A stretch of 5,842 nt of DNA from Candidatus Poribacteria bacterium. GTDB taxonomy: Bacteria; Poribacteria; DTPJ01; WJIO01. How positions within the stretch are numbered: the stretch's first letter is position 1; each line of letters starts with the position of its first letter. The translations under genes were made by a program, and so were the position numbers. Positions 1 to 5,842 of the stretch are shown one piece after another. The stretch spans positions 1-5,842 of the forward strand of contig WJIO01000113.1 in NCBI GenBank assembly GCA_014730235.1, written 5' to 3'. The notes below the pieces were generated by a model. That model made no database searches. It saw only the letters and a list, made by a program, of their open reading frames with translations, and was not told where the DNA came from.

Positions 1-1
1 T

Positions 2-670
2 CACCTAATAACCACCAATGTTGATGATTTCCCCCCGGAAATTCATAAATATAAAGAACTATTATCAGGTAGAAGCATGCTGGTAAATAAGGCAGAACGC
101 ATAGACGTTGAATGTGTGGTCAGAGCTTATCTGGCCGGAAGCGCATGGAGAGCCTATAAAAAAGATGGGTCGATATGCGATATAGAACTTCCTACAGGGT
201 TAAAAGAATCGGATAAATTACCAGAACCTATATTTACACCCACAACCAAAGCCGAATCTGGACATGATATGCCGATGAACCAGAAAGAAGTTGAGGATGC
301 CGTGGGGGTAGAAGTAGCACAAACTATCAAGGATAAAAGCCTTGAGATAATGGCAGCCGCTGGTCAGGAAGCTGAATCAAAGGGTTTAATATTATCTGAT
401 ACAAAGTTTGAATTTGGGTTTTATGAGGGTGAAATTATCCTGATTGATGAGGCTTTAACCCCTGATTCATCAAGGTTCTGGCCTATGGATGATTATGAAC
501 CAGGACGTTCCCAGCGTAGTTTTGATAAGCAGTATGTCAGGGATTACCTGGATAGTTTAGATTGGGATAAAACCCCACCAGGCCCTGAACTGCCGGAAGA
601 AGTGGTAAAAAAGACTACAGAAAGATACATGGAAGCGTATAAACGCATTACAGGAAATCCGAAGTTATAA
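2..670 (+). CDS. purC: Phosphoribosylaminoimidazole-succinocarboxamide synthase (SAICAR synthetase), 5' truncated by window edge
   Basis: PurC joins CAIR and aspartate with ATP to give SAICAR, a cytosolic step of de novo purine synthesis. The frame is open from base 2 and gives 222 residues before TAA at 668-670. The ATG at 77 is internal, because family-like sequence (HLITT, then SGRSMLVNKAERIDVECVVR) runs through it. Numbered from the first visible residue, the signature block VECVVRAYLAGSAW lies at about 36-49, the PIFTPTTKAESGHD substrate/nucleotide region at 76-89, DTKFEFG at 133-139, DEALTPDSSRFW at 149-160 and the PGRSQRSFDKQYVRDYL tail at 167-183. The tail and spacing fit the long, roughly 300-residue form, so I infer about 75 N-terminal residues are missing. 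A small departure is VRAY where VRGY is usual. The last 23 bases overlap the convergent cvpA gene. No terminator is visible. Identification is secure. Confidence 0.96.
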   Translation, partial: HLITTNVDDFPPEIHKYKELLSGRSMLVNKAERIDVECVVRAYLAGSAWRAYKKDGSICDIELPTGLKESDKLPEPIFTPTTKAESGHDMPMNQKEVEDAVGVEVAQTIKDKSLEIMAAAGQEAESKGLILSDTKFEFGFYEGEIILIDEALTPDSSRFWPMDDYEPGRSQRSFDKQYVRDYLDSLDWDKTPPGPELPEEVVKKTTERYMEAYKRITGNPKL

Positions 671-1220
671 ATTCAGATTTCTTCGCATCACCGATCAGTT
701 CTTTTGATTCTCTTGTTGGTTTTATGGTAAAGTTTTTTATGGCCGGGGCTATAGGCTCTATAAAATTATATGAAATGCCTTTCTCAAGAGGGGATTTAGC
801 ACCCATAGGAGAAAAATAGAGATCTATACCCATAATTATTATACTGACAATAAGTATACCTTCGATAACTCCCATTGCTGTTCCTCCAGCCCGATCCAGA
901 CCCGTAGCGTTTTCTGGTGGATTAACGATACGATTTATGAGCATGGCCATAATAAACCATATTATAACCATGAAAAGGCCAAAGAGTAATATAAATATTA
1001 TAGATTGCAAAGGGGCCAGGGGTATTTTGAATTTATCATGAATGGGAAGAGCAATTGTTTCATACAAAAGAATGGCAATAATAAATGAAAAATAAATACG
1101 AAGAGTGCTAAATAAGGCATTAAGCACACCGCGTTTTAATCCTCTGAAAGCAAATAATATTATAGTACCTACTATGAGAATGTCTGGAAAAGGTATTATC
1201 GAAGATATATCTATTTGCAC
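648..1220 (-). CDS. cvpA: CvpA family integral membrane protein
   Basis: With the GTG at 1218-1220 this is a 190-residue protein with four predicted membrane segments at about 14-28, 36-56, 72-97 and 113-133. It has the family features FRGLKRG after the first segment (26-31 region) and the glycine-rich GLDRAGGTAMGVIEGILIV entering the fourth. The C-terminal tail is soluble and ends in TAA at 648-650. CvpA proteins are inner-membrane proteins needed for colicin V production in E. coli and linked to envelope stress; their biochemical role is unclear. Start choice: an AGGAA at 1230-1234 sits 9 bases before this GTG and gives the usual short head before the first helix. In-frame alternatives are ATG at 1250, with no visible Shine-Dalgarno, and GTG at 1283, which adds a basic 21-residue leader with a GGGG only 3-4 bases away. 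The gene is convergent with purC; in E. coli cvpA precedes purF, so a purine neighbour is familiar. Family call firm, start uncertain. Confidence 0.85.
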   Translation of the reverse strand: MQIDISSIIPFPDILIVGTIILFAFRGLKRGVLNALFSTLRIYFSFIIAILLYETIALPIHDKFKIPLAPLQSIIFILLFGLFMVIIWFIMAMLINRIVNPPENATGLDRAGGTAMGVIEGILIVSIIIMGIDLYFSPMGAKSPLEKGISYNFIEPIAPAIKNFTIKPTRESKELIGDAKKSEFITSDFL

Positions 1221-1298
1221 TTGTCTATATTCCTGTTGTTTAGAAATCATACGTTTAATTCTGATTTTTCTAAATAAATACACCTACCCCATACTTTA

Positions 1299-1329
1299 AT
1301 AGTAGAAATTGGCTGGTAATTTCGGTCAA
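1299..1329 (-). promoter_or_regulatory. Weak sigma70-like promoter candidate before cvpA
   Basis: Reading the minus strand, a -35-like TTGACC (1324-1329) is followed 19 bases later by TACTAT (1299-1304). The spacer is longer than the ideal 17 and the -10 matches only four of six positions. It lies in the gap between rsfS and cvpA, the longest inside the gene cluster, so it could give cvpA its own transcription. Low certainty. Confidence 0.25.
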
Positions 1330-1338
1330 TAAAGTTTA

Positions 1339-1698
1339 TTATATACTATTATCTTTATATTCTTCTACCGGGGCATCACCCCATAATCTTTCCAGACCAT
1401 AATGCTCTCTGGATTCTTCGGTGAATATATGAAATATTACATCCACATAATCCAGCAGCATCCAGGAACTTCCCCGTTCACCTTCTTTATGCCAGAGATT
1501 TGCTCCTATTTCGTCGAGTTTCTCTTCAACAGAATTTGATATACCCTCAACGTGGGCGTCTGAATTTCCACTGCATATAACAAAAAAATCAGCAACTGAA
1601 GATAAACCTTTCAAATCCAGCACAACAACATTATTTGCCTTTAATTCCAGTGCAGCTTCTGCGCCTTTTTCTGCAATCACTATTCCTTTTGGTTCCAA
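1339..1698 (-). CDS. rsfS: Ribosomal silencing factor RsfS (Iojap/YbeB family)
   Basis: RsfS binds ribosomal protein uL14 on the 50S subunit and blocks joining with 30S, lowering translation when nutrients are scarce. The 119-residue product matches the family's usual 105-120. It shows the one-domain pattern throughout: ALELKANNVVVLDLKGLSSVADFFVICSGNS (16-46), the region around WHKEGERGSSWMLLDYVDVIFHIF (69-92) and the terminal signature REHYGLERLWGDAP (97-110). The frame stays open upstream to an ATG at 1800, inside yqeK, but the extra 34 residues have no family character. A perfect AGGAGG at 1708-1713 stands 9 bases before the TTG at 1696-1698, which I therefore take as start. yqeK ends 17 bases upstream, so the two genes are probably co-transcribed. 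Family call is certain; the TTG start is well supported. Confidence 0.94.
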   Translation of the reverse strand: MEPKGIVIAEKGAEAALELKANNVVVLDLKGLSSVADFFVICSGNSDAHVEGISNSVEEKLDEIGANLWHKEGERGSSWMLLDYVDVIFHIFTEESREHYGLERLWGDAPVEEYKDNSI

Positions 1699-1707
1699 TA
1701 AATAATA

Positions 1708-1713
1708 CCTCCT
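1708..1713 (-). promoter_or_regulatory. Ribosome binding site of rsfS
   Basis: A perfect AGGAGG on the minus strand, 9 bases before the TTG at 1698. It decides the rsfS start against the in-frame ATG at 1800. It lies just after the yqeK stop codon (1716-1718). Confidence 0.8.
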
Positions 1714-1715
1714 GG

Positions 1716-2288
1716 TTAGTTTGTAATTTCTTTTAGTATATAATTCCGCGCTTCTACTGTCATAGGATGTAAAAGGGAACGCTTTTTTAAAACATAACAT
1801 ACCTTTATTTCAATAGCTTCCAGAACAGCGTTATTCAAATCTCCATTTACGGATAACTCCCTGATCCGCTCTACATCAGGATAAGCCCTATTTGGCTCAG
1901 AGGAATCAGCCAGATATAATATCTTGTCAAGAGTGGACATACCTTTACTGCCAGTATTATGTATTCTTATAGCCTGCAATACCTCTTCATCATCAATCCC
2001 CAATTCCTGTTTAACAAGCAACGCACCAACTGGTGCGTGTAACAAACCGGGTTGAGTTAGCTTTATGTCATCCAGGGGAATTTCATATTCCCGGGCGAAA
2101 GCTATCAATTCATTATGCGGCAACGCTTTGGCTCGATCATGCAGCAAACCAGCCAGCATAGATTTATATTGATCGTAGCCATGAATCTCAGCCAGCTTTA
2201 ATGCTGTATCCATCGTGCCAAGAGAGTGCTTGTATAAACCGGGATTCAGCTTTTGTTTCAGCCATTCTATAATTTCATTCTTCGTCAT
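1716..2288 (-). CDS. yqeK: HD-domain hydrolase YqeK, predicted symmetrical Ap4A hydrolase
   Basis: YqeK proteins are HD-superfamily metal enzymes shown in Gram-positive bacteria to split diadenosine tetraphosphate into two ADP. The 190-residue protein has the metal-ligand pattern in order: H21 (YKHSLG), H50-D51 in LLHDRAK, H84 in LLHAPVGA, H110 in RIHNTG and D128 in YLAD. The following EPNRAYPDVERIR (131-143) is a characteristic YqeK stretch; the usual ADYIEPNR reads ADSSEPNR here. Start ATG at 2286-2288 has an AGGA 8 bases upstream and overlaps the end of yacG by 14 bases, which suggests translational coupling. In many genomes yqeK follows nadD directly; here yacG is inserted between them. 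The biochemical role is by family, not shown here. Confidence 0.92.
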   Translation of the reverse strand: MTKNEIIEWLKQKLNPGLYKHSLGTMDTALKLAEIHGYDQYKSMLAGLLHDRAKALPHNELIAFAREYEIPLDDIKLTQPGLLHAPVGALLVKQELGIDDEEVLQAIRIHNTGSKGMSTLDKILYLADSSEPNRAYPDVERIRELSVNGDLNNAVLEAIEIKVCYVLKKRSLLHPMTVEARNYILKEITN

Positions 2289-2472
2289 CTTTTATATCCT
2301 GCTCTATAGATACAGGCTCAAAAAATTTGTATTCCTCGTTAAGCCATCTGCCTAAATCAACCAGTTTGCATCTTTTTGAACAAAAGGGAAAATTTGGTGG
2401 GAGTTTATTCTTTTTAGGGATATCCACATCCTTACCACATATAGGACATTTTAGTTTTCTTTTTTTAGCCAT
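2275..2472 (-). CDS. yacG: YacG-type zinc-ribbon protein, DNA gyrase inhibitor family (DUF329)
   Basis: A 65-residue basic-headed, acidic-tailed protein, the same length as E. coli YacG. Four cysteines in the family pattern bind one zinc: C9 and C12 in KCPICGK, C31 and C35 in FPFCSKRCK. They are followed by the conserved LVDLGRWLNEEY (37-48) and an acidic tail. In E. coli YacG binds the GyrB subunit and inhibits gyrase; whether that holds here is inference. Its ATG (2470-2472) lies 8 bases inside the end of nadD, with a CAGG about 10 bases upstream, and its own end overlaps yqeK by 14 bases, so it is firmly embedded in the operon. In Proteobacteria the usual neighbour is coaE, so the setting between nadD and yqeK is less common. 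Confidence 0.9.
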   Translation of the reverse strand: MAKKRKLKCPICGKDVDIPKKNKLPPNFPFCSKRCKLVDLGRWLNEEYKFFEPVSIEQDIKDDEE

Positions 2473-3052
2473 AATAATATAACCTGTTTTTATTTATGTA
2501 ATTTTCGACTTCATGAGTGACAAGATATTTTATTGATTTACCTTGTTTTACCCTTTCTCGTATTTCACTGGCGGATATATCCACATTTGTAACTTCAAAT
2601 AAATGAACCTTATCCAGAAAGCGTCTATTTGCCTTATCTATATCATAACCGGGACGATTAATTGCAATGAAATTGCATATATTCAGCAGATGATCAATAT
2701 CTTTCCAGATGTGCATCTCTAAAATTGCATCGGCCCCTACTATCCAGCTAATTCCGGTTTCCTCACCATAAAGAGCTTTCATATCTCTTACAGTCTGAAT
2801 AGTATAAGAGCGACCTGGGCGATCAACTTCCATCCTTGAAACACAAAAATGGGGATTACCCTGAGTTGCCAGAACTGTCATCCTATAACGATGTTCAGGA
2901 TCAATTATATTCCCATATTCTTTGTGGGGAGGACGGGCACTTGGCATAAAGATCAATTCATCGAATTTAAAATAATCATATACCTCTTCAGCACAAATCA
3001 GATGCCCCAGGTGCGGTGGGTTAAAAGTTCCCCCCATAACTCCAATATTCAC
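2465..3052 (-). CDS. nadD: Nicotinate-nucleotide adenylyltransferase
   Basis: NadD transfers AMP from ATP to nicotinate mononucleotide, giving deamido-NAD, the step before NAD synthetase. The 195 residues are typical for the family and have the nucleotidyltransferase layout: GGTFNPPHLGH (7-17, the phosphate-binding HxGH), PPHK (41-44), WIVGADAI (103-110), IWKDID (115-120), RPG (133-135) and the C-terminal ISASEIR (159-165), a variant of ISxTxIR. Start is GTG at 3050-3052, supported by AGGAG 8 bases upstream; that site lies between the proA stop and this start, which are 19 bases apart. The 3' end overlaps yacG by 8 bases. Identification is secure. Confidence 0.97.
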   Translation of the reverse strand: MNIGVMGGTFNPPHLGHLICAEEVYDYFKFDELIFMPSARPPHKEYGNIIDPEHRYRMTVLATQGNPHFCVSRMEVDRPGRSYTIQTVRDMKALYGEETGISWIVGADAILEMHIWKDIDHLLNICNFIAINRPGYDIDKANRRFLDKVHLFEVTNVDISASEIRERVKQGKSIKYLVTHEVENYINKNRLYYYG

Positions 3053-3060
3053 AGCTAAAA

Positions 3061-3065
3061 CTCCT
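3061..3065 (-). promoter_or_regulatory. Ribosome binding site of nadD
   Basis: AGGAG on the minus strand, 8 bases before the GTG at 3052. It fits in the 19-base gap after the proA stop and supports the non-ATG start of nadD. Confidence 0.75.
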
Positions 3066-3071
3066 GTGAGG

Positions 3072-4328
3072 TTATTCTCTGATTTGACCGTTACCGAAGA
3101 TTATATACTTCTGACTGGTTAGATCCTCTAAACCCATAGGCCCTCTGGAATGTAATTTTTGAGTGCTTATTCCCAGTTCTGCCCCCAGACCGAATTCGTT
3201 TCCATCGGTAAATCTGGTGGATGCGTTTACATATACAGCAGCCGAATCAACTTGGTTCAGAAACTTGTTGGCCCTGCTGTAATCATTTGTAACTATTGCA
3301 TCAGAATGCAGACTTCCGTATGTCATAATGTGATCTATGGCTTCATCAATATCTTTAACAACCTTTACCGACAGAACAAGCTCAAGGTATTCGGTTTCCC
3401 AATCTTCTTCAGTGGCTTCCATAACATCCGAGCAAATCTCTCTGGTTTTAGCACATCCTCTTACTTCAACCTCTGCATCATGTAATCTTTTTATCATTCC
3501 GGGCAGAAAATCAGTGGCTATGTCATGATGCACAAGCATTGTCTCCATGGCATTGCAGACACCAGGACGCTGGACTTTGGCATTAAAGCAGATTTCCCGG
3601 GCCATATCCAGATCTGCACCAGTGTCAACATAAGTATGACAAAGACCTGCTGAATGTCTGGCTACAGGTATGGTGGCATTTTCTGTTACTGCCTTTATAA
3701 GACTGTGACCACCACGAGCTACTATCATGTCAATGTATTTATCCAGCTTTATCATCTCCATAACAGCTTGACGGTCGGTAACTTCCACCAACTGTATACA
3801 ACCCTCTGGAAGGCCTGCAGTCACAGCGGATTTTACCAATATATCAGCAATAGTCGTATTGGAGTTTATGGCTTCTGAACCTCCGCGCAGGATAATGGCA
3901 TTTCCGGACTTCAGGCACAGACCAGCGGCATCGGCTGTAACGTTAGGTCGGGATTCGTAGATAATTCCTATAACACCTATGGGAACCCGGATCTTACCGA
4001 TCTGTAGACCGTTGGGACGCTTCCACATGCGGGTTATTTCACCCACCGGATCTGGCAGAGCAGCGATTTCTTTTAATCCTGAGGCCATGCCGCTGATCCT
4101 TTTGTCTGTCAGTTCCAACCGATCCATCATGGCTGAGGATAAACCCTTTTCCTTACCGTATTCTAAATCCTTTTTATTCTCGGATTTAAGGACTTCTGCG
4201 GCATCCATTAGCCCATCGGCCATAGCCATAAGGGCTTCATTTTTCACCCTTGATGAGACACCAGCCAGTATACGGGCTGATTTTTTTGCTTTTAATGCTT
4301 TATCTAACAATAGCTCTTTAATATCCAT
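3072..4328 (-). CDS. proA: Gamma-glutamyl phosphate reductase (glutamate-5-semialdehyde dehydrogenase)
   Basis: ProA reduces gamma-glutamyl phosphate with NADPH to glutamate 5-semialdehyde, which cyclises on the way to proline. The 418 residues match the usual length (E. coli 417). The aldehyde-dehydrogenase-like cofactor domain holds PIGVIGIIYESRPNV (116-130) and LKSGNAIILRGGSEA (139-153). The catalytic cysteine is C258 in KVQRPGVCNAMET. The C-terminal signature FGLGAELGISTQKLHSRGPMGLEDLTS (379-405) is present. A departure from the common IPRGG motif is VARGG at 203-207. Start ATG 4326-4328 has GAGG about 7 bases upstream, and proB ends 20 bases before it, the standard proBA arrangement. ProB and ProA probably act together to protect the labile acyl phosphate. 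Identification is secure. Confidence 0.98.
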   Translation of the reverse strand: MDIKELLLDKALKAKKSARILAGVSSRVKNEALMAMADGLMDAAEVLKSENKKDLEYGKEKGLSSAMMDRLELTDKRISGMASGLKEIAALPDPVGEITRMWKRPNGLQIGKIRVPIGVIGIIYESRPNVTADAAGLCLKSGNAIILRGGSEAINSNTTIADILVKSAVTAGLPEGCIQLVEVTDRQAVMEMIKLDKYIDMIVARGGHSLIKAVTENATIPVARHSAGLCHTYVDTGADLDMAREICFNAKVQRPGVCNAMETMLVHHDIATDFLPGMIKRLHDAEVEVRGCAKTREICSDVMEATEEDWETEYLELVLSVKVVKDIDEAIDHIMTYGSLHSDAIVTNDYSRANKFLNQVDSAAVYVNASTRFTDGNEFGLGAELGISTQKLHSRGPMGLEDLTSQKYIIFGNGQIRE

Positions 4329-4348: not shown

Positions 4349-5464
4349 TTACAATATAACGAGGTTATCCCTGTGAATTACCTCGTCATAATATATATGA
4401 CCTAATATTGATTCAATCTGCTCCGTTTTTTTACCTTTTATCTTTTCAACTTCTTCGGAACTGTAATTTGCTAATCCCCTGGCAAACTCTTTATCATCTT
4501 CTCCTGTGCAACTTATAGCATCGCCAAATTCAAATTTACCTTCTACACTGGTAATTCCCGATGGCAAAAGGCTTTTTCCATATTTTGTTAAAGCTTTTTT
4601 TGCCCCGGAATCCACCTTTATTTTACCTTTTGTGGGAACTGAATAGGCAATCCAGCGTTTTTTACCCGACATCTTATCTCCTGCTGGTAAAAAGACCGTT
4701 CCTTCTTCTTCGCCATTTAAAATTCTCTCTATAATCCCCGCCTTGCATCCGTTGGCGATAACCATAATATCCCCTGCGCCGGTTACAATTTCCGCCGCCT
4801 GGAGCTTTGTTGTCATTCCTCCTACAGAAACATTACTACCTTTCCCCCCGGCCATGCTGTGGATTTCAGTGGTTACTGACGGAATTACTGAGATTATCTT
4901 CTTTTCGAAATTATAAAAGCCGTCGATATCCGATAATATTAGCAGTAAGTCGGCTTTGATAAGGTTTGCTACCAGTGCGGATAGTGTATCATTATCGCCG
5001 AATTTAATTTCTTCCACAGCCACAGTGTCATTTTCATTTATAATAGGTATGACATCGTATTGTAAAAGGGTGGATATAGTATTATTGGCATTGGTGTATC
5101 TTTTCCTATCGCAGATATCATCCTGAGTAAGAAGAACCTGAGCTACTAATTGTCCGTGTTTTTCAAAAATTTGTTTGTAGGTATGCATCAGGTGGCCCTG
5201 TCCCACTGCCGCTGCCGCCTGCTGTCGAGGTATATCCCTGGGACGCGTTTTCCAACCAAGCTGTCCCATACCGGTAGCAATAGCCCCGGAAGTAACTAGA
5301 ATAACGTCCTTATCCGTTTTATGTAACTTAATTAAATCAAGTGATAGGTTTTCTATACGCCCAAGGTCTAAACTCATATCAGGTGATGTGATTGAGCTTG
5401 TGCCGACTTTTACAACTATTTTTTTTACACTCTTAAAAAGAGACTTGCGATCTATTTTTTTCAT
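4349..5464 (-). CDS. proB: Glutamate 5-kinase with C-terminal PUA domain
   Basis: ProB phosphorylates glutamate with ATP, the committed and normally proline-inhibited step of proline synthesis. It has 371 residues, full length for the two-domain form. The amino-acid-kinase domain shows VVKVGTSS (17-24), VTSGAIATGMGQLG (57-70), NENDTV (143-148), FGDNDTLSALVA (155-166), LSDIDGFY (177-184) and GGMTTK (215-220). A linker FLPA (258-261) leads to a PUA domain at about 280-360 and the family-typical end HRDNLVIL. Start ATG 5462-5464 has a modest GGA 5 bases upstream. It is first in the minus-strand gene cluster; two promoter candidates and a MITE-like element lie in front of it. obgE, which often precedes proB, is not the adjacent gene here. 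Identification is secure. Confidence 0.98.
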   Translation of the reverse strand: MKKIDRKSLFKSVKKIVVKVGTSSITSPDMSLDLGRIENLSLDLIKLHKTDKDVILVTSGAIATGMGQLGWKTRPRDIPRQQAAAAVGQGHLMHTYKQIFEKHGQLVAQVLLTQDDICDRKRYTNANNTISTLLQYDVIPIINENDTVAVEEIKFGDNDTLSALVANLIKADLLLILSDIDGFYNFEKKIISVIPSVTTEIHSMAGGKGSNVSVGGMTTKLQAAEIVTGAGDIMVIANGCKAGIIERILNGEEEGTVFLPAGDKMSGKKRWIAYSVPTKGKIKVDSGAKKALTKYGKSLLPSGITSVEGKFEFGDAISCTGEDDKEFARGLANYSSEEVEKIKGKKTEQIESILGHIYYDEVIHRDNLVIL

Positions 5465-5472
5465 ATAATTCC

Positions 5473-5501
5473 AGAATATAAAAGATATAAAGTCATGTCA
5501 A
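5473..5501 (-). promoter_or_regulatory. Sigma70-like promoter candidate for proB (proximal)
   Basis: On the minus strand a perfect TTGACA (5496-5501) is followed after 17 bases by TATTCT (5473-5478, four of six); a shifted TATATT (5475-5480) fits better but with a 15-base spacer. The -10 ends only 8 bases before the proB ATG, so a transcript from here would have almost no leader and might lose the GGA ribosome site. The perfect -35 is striking but the position is awkward. Confidence 0.4.
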
Positions 5502-5510
5502 GGTTTAAAT

Positions 5511-5539
5511 ATTATAATTTTTGGTTCTTCCGGGTTCAG
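5511..5539 (-). promoter_or_regulatory. Sigma70-like promoter candidate for proB, partly inside the element end (distal)
   Basis: On the minus strand a perfect -10, TATAAT (5511-5516), stands 17 bases after CTGAAC (5534-5539), a three-of-six match to the -35 consensus. The -35 lies inside the inverted repeat end of the MITE-like element and the -10 lies in its AT-rich flank. Start of transcription would fall near 5504, leaving a leader of about 40 bases with the proB ribosome site intact, which makes it the more workable of the two candidates. Confidence 0.4.
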
Positions 5540-5547
5540 TGTGGTAA
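5523..5547 (+). repeat. Left terminal inverted repeat
   Basis: Left arm of the 121-base element, a perfect reverse complement of 5619-5643. The pairing stops on both sides: 5522 and 5644 are both T, and inward 5548 and 5618 are both T. It ends 58 bases from the proB start codon. Confidence 0.85.
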
Positions 5548-5568
5548 TAGTTTGAAAATTCTCTCAAC

Positions 5569-5598
5569 CTGTCATTCCTGCGAAAGCAGGAATAACAG
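5569..5598. repeat. Interior hairpin with GAAA loop (dispersed palindromic repeat type)
   Basis: The stem ATTCCTGC (5574-5581) pairs perfectly with GCAGGAAT (5586-5593) around a GAAA loop. After one C-A mismatch, CTGT (5569-5572) pairs with ACAG (5595-5598). The core is like the palindromic CATTCCTGCGAAAGCAGGAAT units that I know from many environmental bacterial genomes, where they occur in many copies. Here only one copy is present, inside the inverted-repeat element. Folded as RNA or single-stranded DNA the whole 121 bases would form a long stem topped by this hairpin. Confidence 0.7.
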
Positions 5599-5618
5599 CA
5601 TAAAGAAGTTTCTTATCT

Positions 5619-5643
5619 TTACCACACTGAACCCGGAAGAACC
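5619..5643 (-). repeat. Right terminal inverted repeat
   Basis: Right arm of the 121-base element, a perfect reverse complement of 5523-5547. It stops 4 bases from the stop codon (5648-5650) of the neighbouring partial gene, so the element either inserted just behind that gene or helped create its present end. Confidence 0.85.
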
Positions 5644-5647
5644 TTTT

Positions 5648-5842
5648 TTAATAATAATATGAAGATGATCCAGGTCTCAGGAATCCACCTACGCGACCCA
5701 TGCCGGGAATACTTCGTAAGTTCCATGAATCTGAAGCGTCGTCGTATCCAATACCCAGGGCTTTGCCGGGATCTGCAAGGATGTTCAGTTGAACCATGAA
5801 ATCCCTGCGGATTCTTCCGTCCTTTGTGCCGCGTCGGCGAAA
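5648..5842 (-). CDS. Unrecognised protein, C-terminal 64 residues, cut by window edge
   Basis: The frame is open from the window edge to TAA at 5648-5650. The visible tail has a strongly basic, arginine-rich head (FRRRGTKDGRIRRDF, 1-15), then MVQLNILADPGKALGIGYDD (16-35), a glycine-rich LRSIPGMGRVGGFLRPG, and the end SSSYYY. Many GNN codons and a smooth composition favour real coding. A plus-strand ORF across the same bases (5659-5799) lacks a ribosome site. An ATG at 5795-5797 with AGGG 5 bases before it could start a 49-residue protein, but the frame is open beyond it. I do not recognise the family. The G-x-RR-x-F-x-V-x-L pattern vaguely recalls C-terminal regions of PilX-like pilus assembly proteins, and the aromatic end recalls outer-membrane proteins; both are guesses. 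GC is about 53%, well above the neighbouring operon. Confidence 0.5.
   Translation of the reverse strand, partial: FRRRGTKDGRIRRDFMVQLNILADPGKALGIGYDDASDSWNLRSIPGMGRVGGFLRPGSSSYYY

Follow-up and report, generated by a model that had tools for sequence, protein, structure and literature searches.

The window analysed here, a stretch of 5,842 nucleotides, is a whole contig (C29) of a Candidatus Poribacteria genome of 5.53 Mb in 451 contigs. Its minus strand carries, in order, an LptD-like gene, the element under study, proB, proA, and nadD-like, yacG-like, HD-domain, rsfS and CvpA-like genes, and a SAICAR synthetase gene lies on the plus strand; Pfam support for the window's genes comes from AA_kinase with PUA, Aldedh, CTP_transf_like, YacG, HD, RsfS, Colicin_V and SAICAR_synt. 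The gene upstream of proB could be named through an overlap: positions 5702-5842, the final 141 bases of the window, are identical to the first 141 of contig C308, which holds the LptD-like gene at 1-3786 on its minus strand (L220), with the C-terminus falling in the window at 5648-5842. The product combines four PpiC-type rotamase stretches and an LptD_2 match in one chain. The assembly graph branches at 5702, 58 bases past the element, perhaps reflecting a strain difference near the insertion. The element itself occupies 121 bp (5523-5643, no strand assigned), begins 4 bases after the LptD-like stop codon (5648-5650, minus strand) and stands 58 bases ahead of the proB start codon (5462-5464, minus strand). 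Between it and proB there is a promoter-like TTGACA-17-TATTCT (5473-5501, minus strand), which is weak and not beyond chance, two such sites being found against 1.4 expected. As far as can be read from the sequence, no function of the element for proB is evident; it lies upstream of this putative promoter.

The element is bounded by a left terminal inverted repeat of 25 bp, GGTTCTTCCGGGTTCAGTGTGGTAA exactly, with the tip GGTTCTTCCGG (5523-5547, plus strand), and by a right one that matches it perfectly as its reverse complement (5619-5643, minus strand); the longest inverted repeat of the window includes this pair. The 71 bases between the arms are non-coding, no ORF of at least 60 aa being present within the 121 bp, and Rfam has no match anywhere in the window, so that the perfect ends around a non-coding spacer described in the sequence-only reading are borne out. 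The folding energy of the strand is -73.4 kcal/mol, where dinucleotide shuffles give -25.0 +/- 3.3 (z -14.7). Inside the arms, clustering of half-types distinguishes two different halves: the interior of half-module A, a variant of TAATTGAAAATTCTCTCAGCT (5548-5570, plus strand), and that of half-module B, read on the minus strand as GATAAGAAACTTCTTTATGC (5597-5618). They meet at a central palindrome of the general form ATTCCTGC-N4-GCAGGAAT, here a dRS3-like core GTCATTCCTGC-GAAA-GCAGGAATAAC (5571-5596, no strand assigned) in which one stem base, close to the 3' end, has changed from G to A.

A search with the 22-base arm tip, allowing up to three mismatches, gave 652 matches in the 5.53-Mb genome (331 forward and 321 reverse) and none for the reversed tip used as a control in the same genome; from the sampled contigs we extrapolate to some 276-369 two-ended copies. 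Detailed counts come from 1.94 Mb, chosen partly for holding copies. The copies listed carry differing flanks, as the sequence-only reading had anticipated, and 193 of the 194 two-ended ones lie outside ORFs, compared with 86% of random 121-mers falling inside. They are enriched in divergent gene gaps (54 of the 163 scored, compared with 115 of 1159 pairs of adjacent genes) and are found far more often between divergent than between convergent genes (54 vs 13). Of the 83 further genomes in the phylum, 78 contain no arm at two mismatches and five contain one to four, so that arms at such copy number are absent from all 83; viral contigs yielded none. The MITE load is thus heavy and lineage-restricted within the uncultured phylum Candidatus Poribacteria. 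The label MITE-like proposed earlier is well founded: 121 bp, no transposase gene, perfect 25-bp ends, many dispersed copies and, at the level of the family, a target-site duplication of 8 bp.

This duplication is exact in 59 of 130 A/B-type copies in the 1.94 Mb, compared with 0.23% for mis-paired flanks, and a sample of the first 1.2 Mb gave an exact 8-bp direct repeat for 39 of 83 paired copies; its consensus is the AT-rich AAAATTTT. Roughly 40% of A/B-type copies reach no more than 6/8, in part owing to a repeat-in-repeat family that displaces the match by one base, and loss of the duplication increases with arm divergence. The focal copy shows no clear duplication: its left flank TAATTTTT (5515-5522) and right flank TTTTTTAA (5644-5651), both read on the plus strand, match at 4/8. 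Among the twelve copies with the least-diverged arms relative to the reference, eleven score 7 or 8/8, the one that does not being the focal copy. Individual members of MITE families frequently lose their duplication, and for that reason its absence here does not undo the family assignment; it does mean that the insertion event of the focal copy is not visible. The duplication may have been lost, may never have formed, or may have been separated by a misjoin of the flanks in assembly. The last of these would leave the repeat family real and explain the missing duplication as an assembly error at a repeat, and it draws on the combination of perfect arms with flanks at 4/8 and on the contig end 199 bases beyond the element, at the 141-base overlap with another contig. 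The same overlap implies that the graph was built on 141-mers, which exceed the 121-bp element in length, so that copies with differing flanks should be resolved, and the branch point at 5702 lies outside the element; we regard a misjoin as unlikely. Apart from the absent duplication, the focal copy is ordinary for its family.

The very stable fold and the position 4 bases past the LptD-like stop codon, with six T following the hairpin on the plus strand, might also suggest an intrinsic terminator or a structured RNA belonging to the lptD-proB region and maintained by selection. Such a role is hard to reconcile with some 300 dispersed copies in differing flanks and with their enrichment between divergent rather than convergent genes; the run of T is not on the strand of lptD and proB but on the other one, a terminator scan, limited to short loops, found none, and the search of Rfam was equally negative. 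A terminator of the proB operon was dropped on the grounds of the wrong strand and the negative scan. Furthermore, rare variants in the outer arms of A/B copies are one-sided in 70 cases and two-sided in 4, which gives no indication of selection for the stem, and this reading was set aside as well. In the 70-75-base cores described below, matched changes number 28 against 6 expected, and shared ancestry may be the cause. Taken as a whole, a terminator or RNA function appears very improbable. The sequence-only reading had offered recent mobility or selection for the structure: mobility is supported by copy number, flanks and duplications, and the mostly one-sided changes do not indicate selection on the stem. 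What it had named as counter-evidence, a lone copy conserved in place with compensatory changes in its stem, was not seen, the copies being dispersed.

Coming back to the element as a MITE, the question arises as to which transposase moves it. An earlier, narrower arm pattern had no match in 84,980 genomes; a wider, degenerate tip pattern gave matches in public genomes, in at least 32 stretches. Among the matches listed are two loci of Nitrospira sp. ACE_NIT13 (L147 and L167) with insertion sequences of 1309 bp, which resemble the Poribacteria family in a near-identical right tip (GGCTCTTCCGGTTTTAGTGTGG) and in AT-rich 8-bp duplications (AAAAAATG and GAAATTCT), and differ from it in length, in being coding, in lineage and in a less similar left tip (GGCTCTTCAGGAAATGGTGTGG); they encode a protein of 421 aa with PF01610 (E 2e-74), HTH_Tnp_ISL3 and Zn_ribbon_ISL3. 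Also among the matches listed is a gammaproteobacterial element of 1386 bp with the tip GGCTCTTCCGGTTTGAGTGTGG, PF01610 at 3e-67 and the same ISL3 domains, and with no exact duplication. These near-identical tips on elements encoding ISL3 transposases uphold the ISL3-like end proposed in the sequence-only reading, and the ends together with the 8-bp duplications place the family, by sequence, with ISL3. The transposase that mobilises it in this genome would accordingly be of the ISL3 family. As for the full-length partner suggested for this genome, PF01610 occurs there as three fragments only, each at a contig end, and no complete ISL3 element bounded by GGTTCTTCCGGGTTCAGTGTGG was found in the 451-contig assembly, from which collapsed repeats may be missing. 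The readable tips of the fragments, GGTTCATCCGGTTAATGCG and GGATTCATCCGGGAAATG, agree with the MITE mainly over the first dozen bases. The fragment loci are L038, L039 and L040; contigs C342 and C236 may be contamination, and C391, which has an ISL3 transposase fragment, also carries the focal MITE family. No ISL3 transposase was found in G004 or G029, two genomes with related tips; the latter, a Poribacteria genome, has a 561-bp element (L138, 962-1522) with related tips, an 8-bp duplication GGTTATTG and no evident transposase.

What makes this family worth following is its shared core, together with the chimeras described below. When copies are aligned outward from it, more than ten recurrent half-modules all meet the palindrome at the same base, and the 330 cores with both flanks include 141 A/B, 23 A/C, 16 G1/G2 and 13 I/J combinations, half-modules being typed by fuzzy motifs that leave many flanks unclassified. 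ATTCCT-N8-AGGAAT forms the core in nearly all copies; the exact pattern, GAC ends included, is present at 255 places in this genome and at none in the 83 others from the phylum, and parts of the core lacking the GAC ends appear as single occurrences in a few relatives. The core exists in forms of 26 bases, 47 bases (TTCAAGCTTTTTCAAAAAGCTTGAA replacing the loop), 67 bases and 70-75 bases (two palindromes around a spacer), and these interchangeable forms are found with different half-modules. Elements with equal halves are rare (four A/A and one B/B, the majority diverged or truncated). Bacteria do not stably maintain long perfect palindromes, and our guess is that this instability explains the rarity. 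Read from A to B, the 26-base core of A/B elements carries a GAAA loop in 33 cases and a TTTC loop in 26. Template switching between the arms of inverted repeats is known to invert spacers and to homogenise arms (PMC8604942), and it would be the simplest cause of these flipped loops.

The same core palindrome also joins halves of two unrelated MITE families, G, whose tip GTAATCGTTAAAAAATG is present in 144 exact copies over both strands, and I-J, with the tips CTGATATTTCTAAAATTAA and CTGAGAATTCTAAAAAATC. Elements with both ends from one family keep the traces of their insertion: exact 5-bp duplications flank 8 of 15 G-G and 6 of 9 IJ-IJ elements, where chance gives 0.8%, and the 8-bp duplication is exact in 64 of 170 ISL3-ISL3 elements. 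Counting an exact duplication of either length, none of the 28 scorable cross-family chimeras has one, against 78 of 194 same-family elements (Fisher p 2.6e-6). Devoid of duplications, the chimeras were not inserted as units and probably formed after insertion, through exchange or deletion at the palindrome. In seven cases the tip of the other family lies outside the ISL3 tip, an arrangement that, judged from single sequences, would fit insertion of an ISL3-type element into the other element followed by a core-core deletion. Among A/B copies that have no duplication, no two had exchanged their flanks exactly and reciprocally; with no reciprocal pair and with duplications lost mainly in diverged copies, frequent crossover among young A/B copies was dropped. 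A larger repeat is marked by 62 occurrences of GTCCGTGAAAACTTT, most of them followed at the same base by the GGCTCT tip of the focal MITE family, and in several the far side carries AAACTTTATCGCAATAACACACGGA (for example L079 12648, L116 7465 and L185 2958); it has the appearance of a MITE that sits inside another element and was copied along with it. That the family spread instead in the form of composite modules, with the core as the target of a site-specific recombinase of the dRS3 type and the ISL3 ends as passengers, is scarcely credible: the core does resemble dRS3, a phage-integrase target in Neisseria (PMC3898611), and is common to several families, but the exact 8-bp duplications flanking the outer ends show that the tips are where transposition took place, an IS110-type recombinase (PF01548) has no match in this genome, and few cores (11 of 330) are without a recognised module on either side.

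The closest known systems include the 187-nt ISL3-type MITE of Microcystis aeruginosa (PMC11448079), likewise non-coding, stem-loop forming and mostly intergenic, with 8-nt duplications, ends that start with GGCTCTTCG and an ascribed ISL3 transposase. It has imperfect ends of 9 nt and 31-33 identical copies, whereas the Poribacteria MITE has ends of 22-25 bp, about 300 divergent copies, and two half-modules with a shared palindromic core; a matching full-length element was found in Microcystis (PMC11448079) and not in this Poribacteria genome. The core recalls the dRS3 of Neisseria (ATTCCC-N8-GGGAAT; PMC3898611), which has been linked to rearrangements (PMC9778887). As in the NIME/dRS3 arrays, an intergenic 20-bp palindrome of the form ATTCC(C/T)-N8-(A/G)GGAAT recurs in hundreds of copies and joins different modules (PMC3898611, PMC9778887), which in our case is seen in both the half-module combinations and the chimeras and agrees with the mosaic arrays of NIMEs. 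The core here is not the exact dRS3 palindrome, each arm differing by one base, and unlike dRS3, which borders RS modules in Neisseria, the Poribacteria palindrome sits in the middle of MITEs whose ends and duplications are defined. Correia repeat enclosed elements of Neisseria are similar in size (100-160 bp), intergenic position, ends of about 26 bp and copy number above 100, and differ in ends beginning TATAGTGGATTAA and in having no ISL3 link (PMC9778887).

Altogether, we are highly confident that the element is a non-autonomous MITE served in trans by an ISL3-family transposase, built of two half-modules at a shared core; the chimeras probably arose after insertion. The acting transposase, which we infer to be of this family, would have moved the MITE into AT-rich gaps between genes in a single species of Candidatus Poribacteria. 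Every element consists of two different half-modules (A and B at the focal copy) joined at a palindromic core; its loop occurs in both orientations, and larger palindromic inserts are found in its place. Replicational template switching in the hairpin would flip the loops, and recombination or deletion between the cores of nearby copies would be the simplest route to the chimeras.

Intergenic mosaics are already known in Neisseria as NIMEs, and the occurrence of such mosaics inside MITEs that have defined duplications seems to be new, linking two observations, ISL3-type MITEs and dRS3-like mosaics, that have so far been separate. Since the outer ends keep duplications, insertions of whole units can be told from later assemblies, and a mosaic origin becomes testable through them. 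The MITE load may also account for part of the fragmentation of this assembly. It is tempting to hypothesize, and we do so tentatively, somewhat short of favouring it, that the dRS3-like palindrome acts as a recombination hub for the exchange of halves and core cassettes among unrelated MITE families that differ in their type of transposase; elements with asymmetric halves would persist, equal halves making a long unstable palindrome, and new families could arise by the shuffling of halves.
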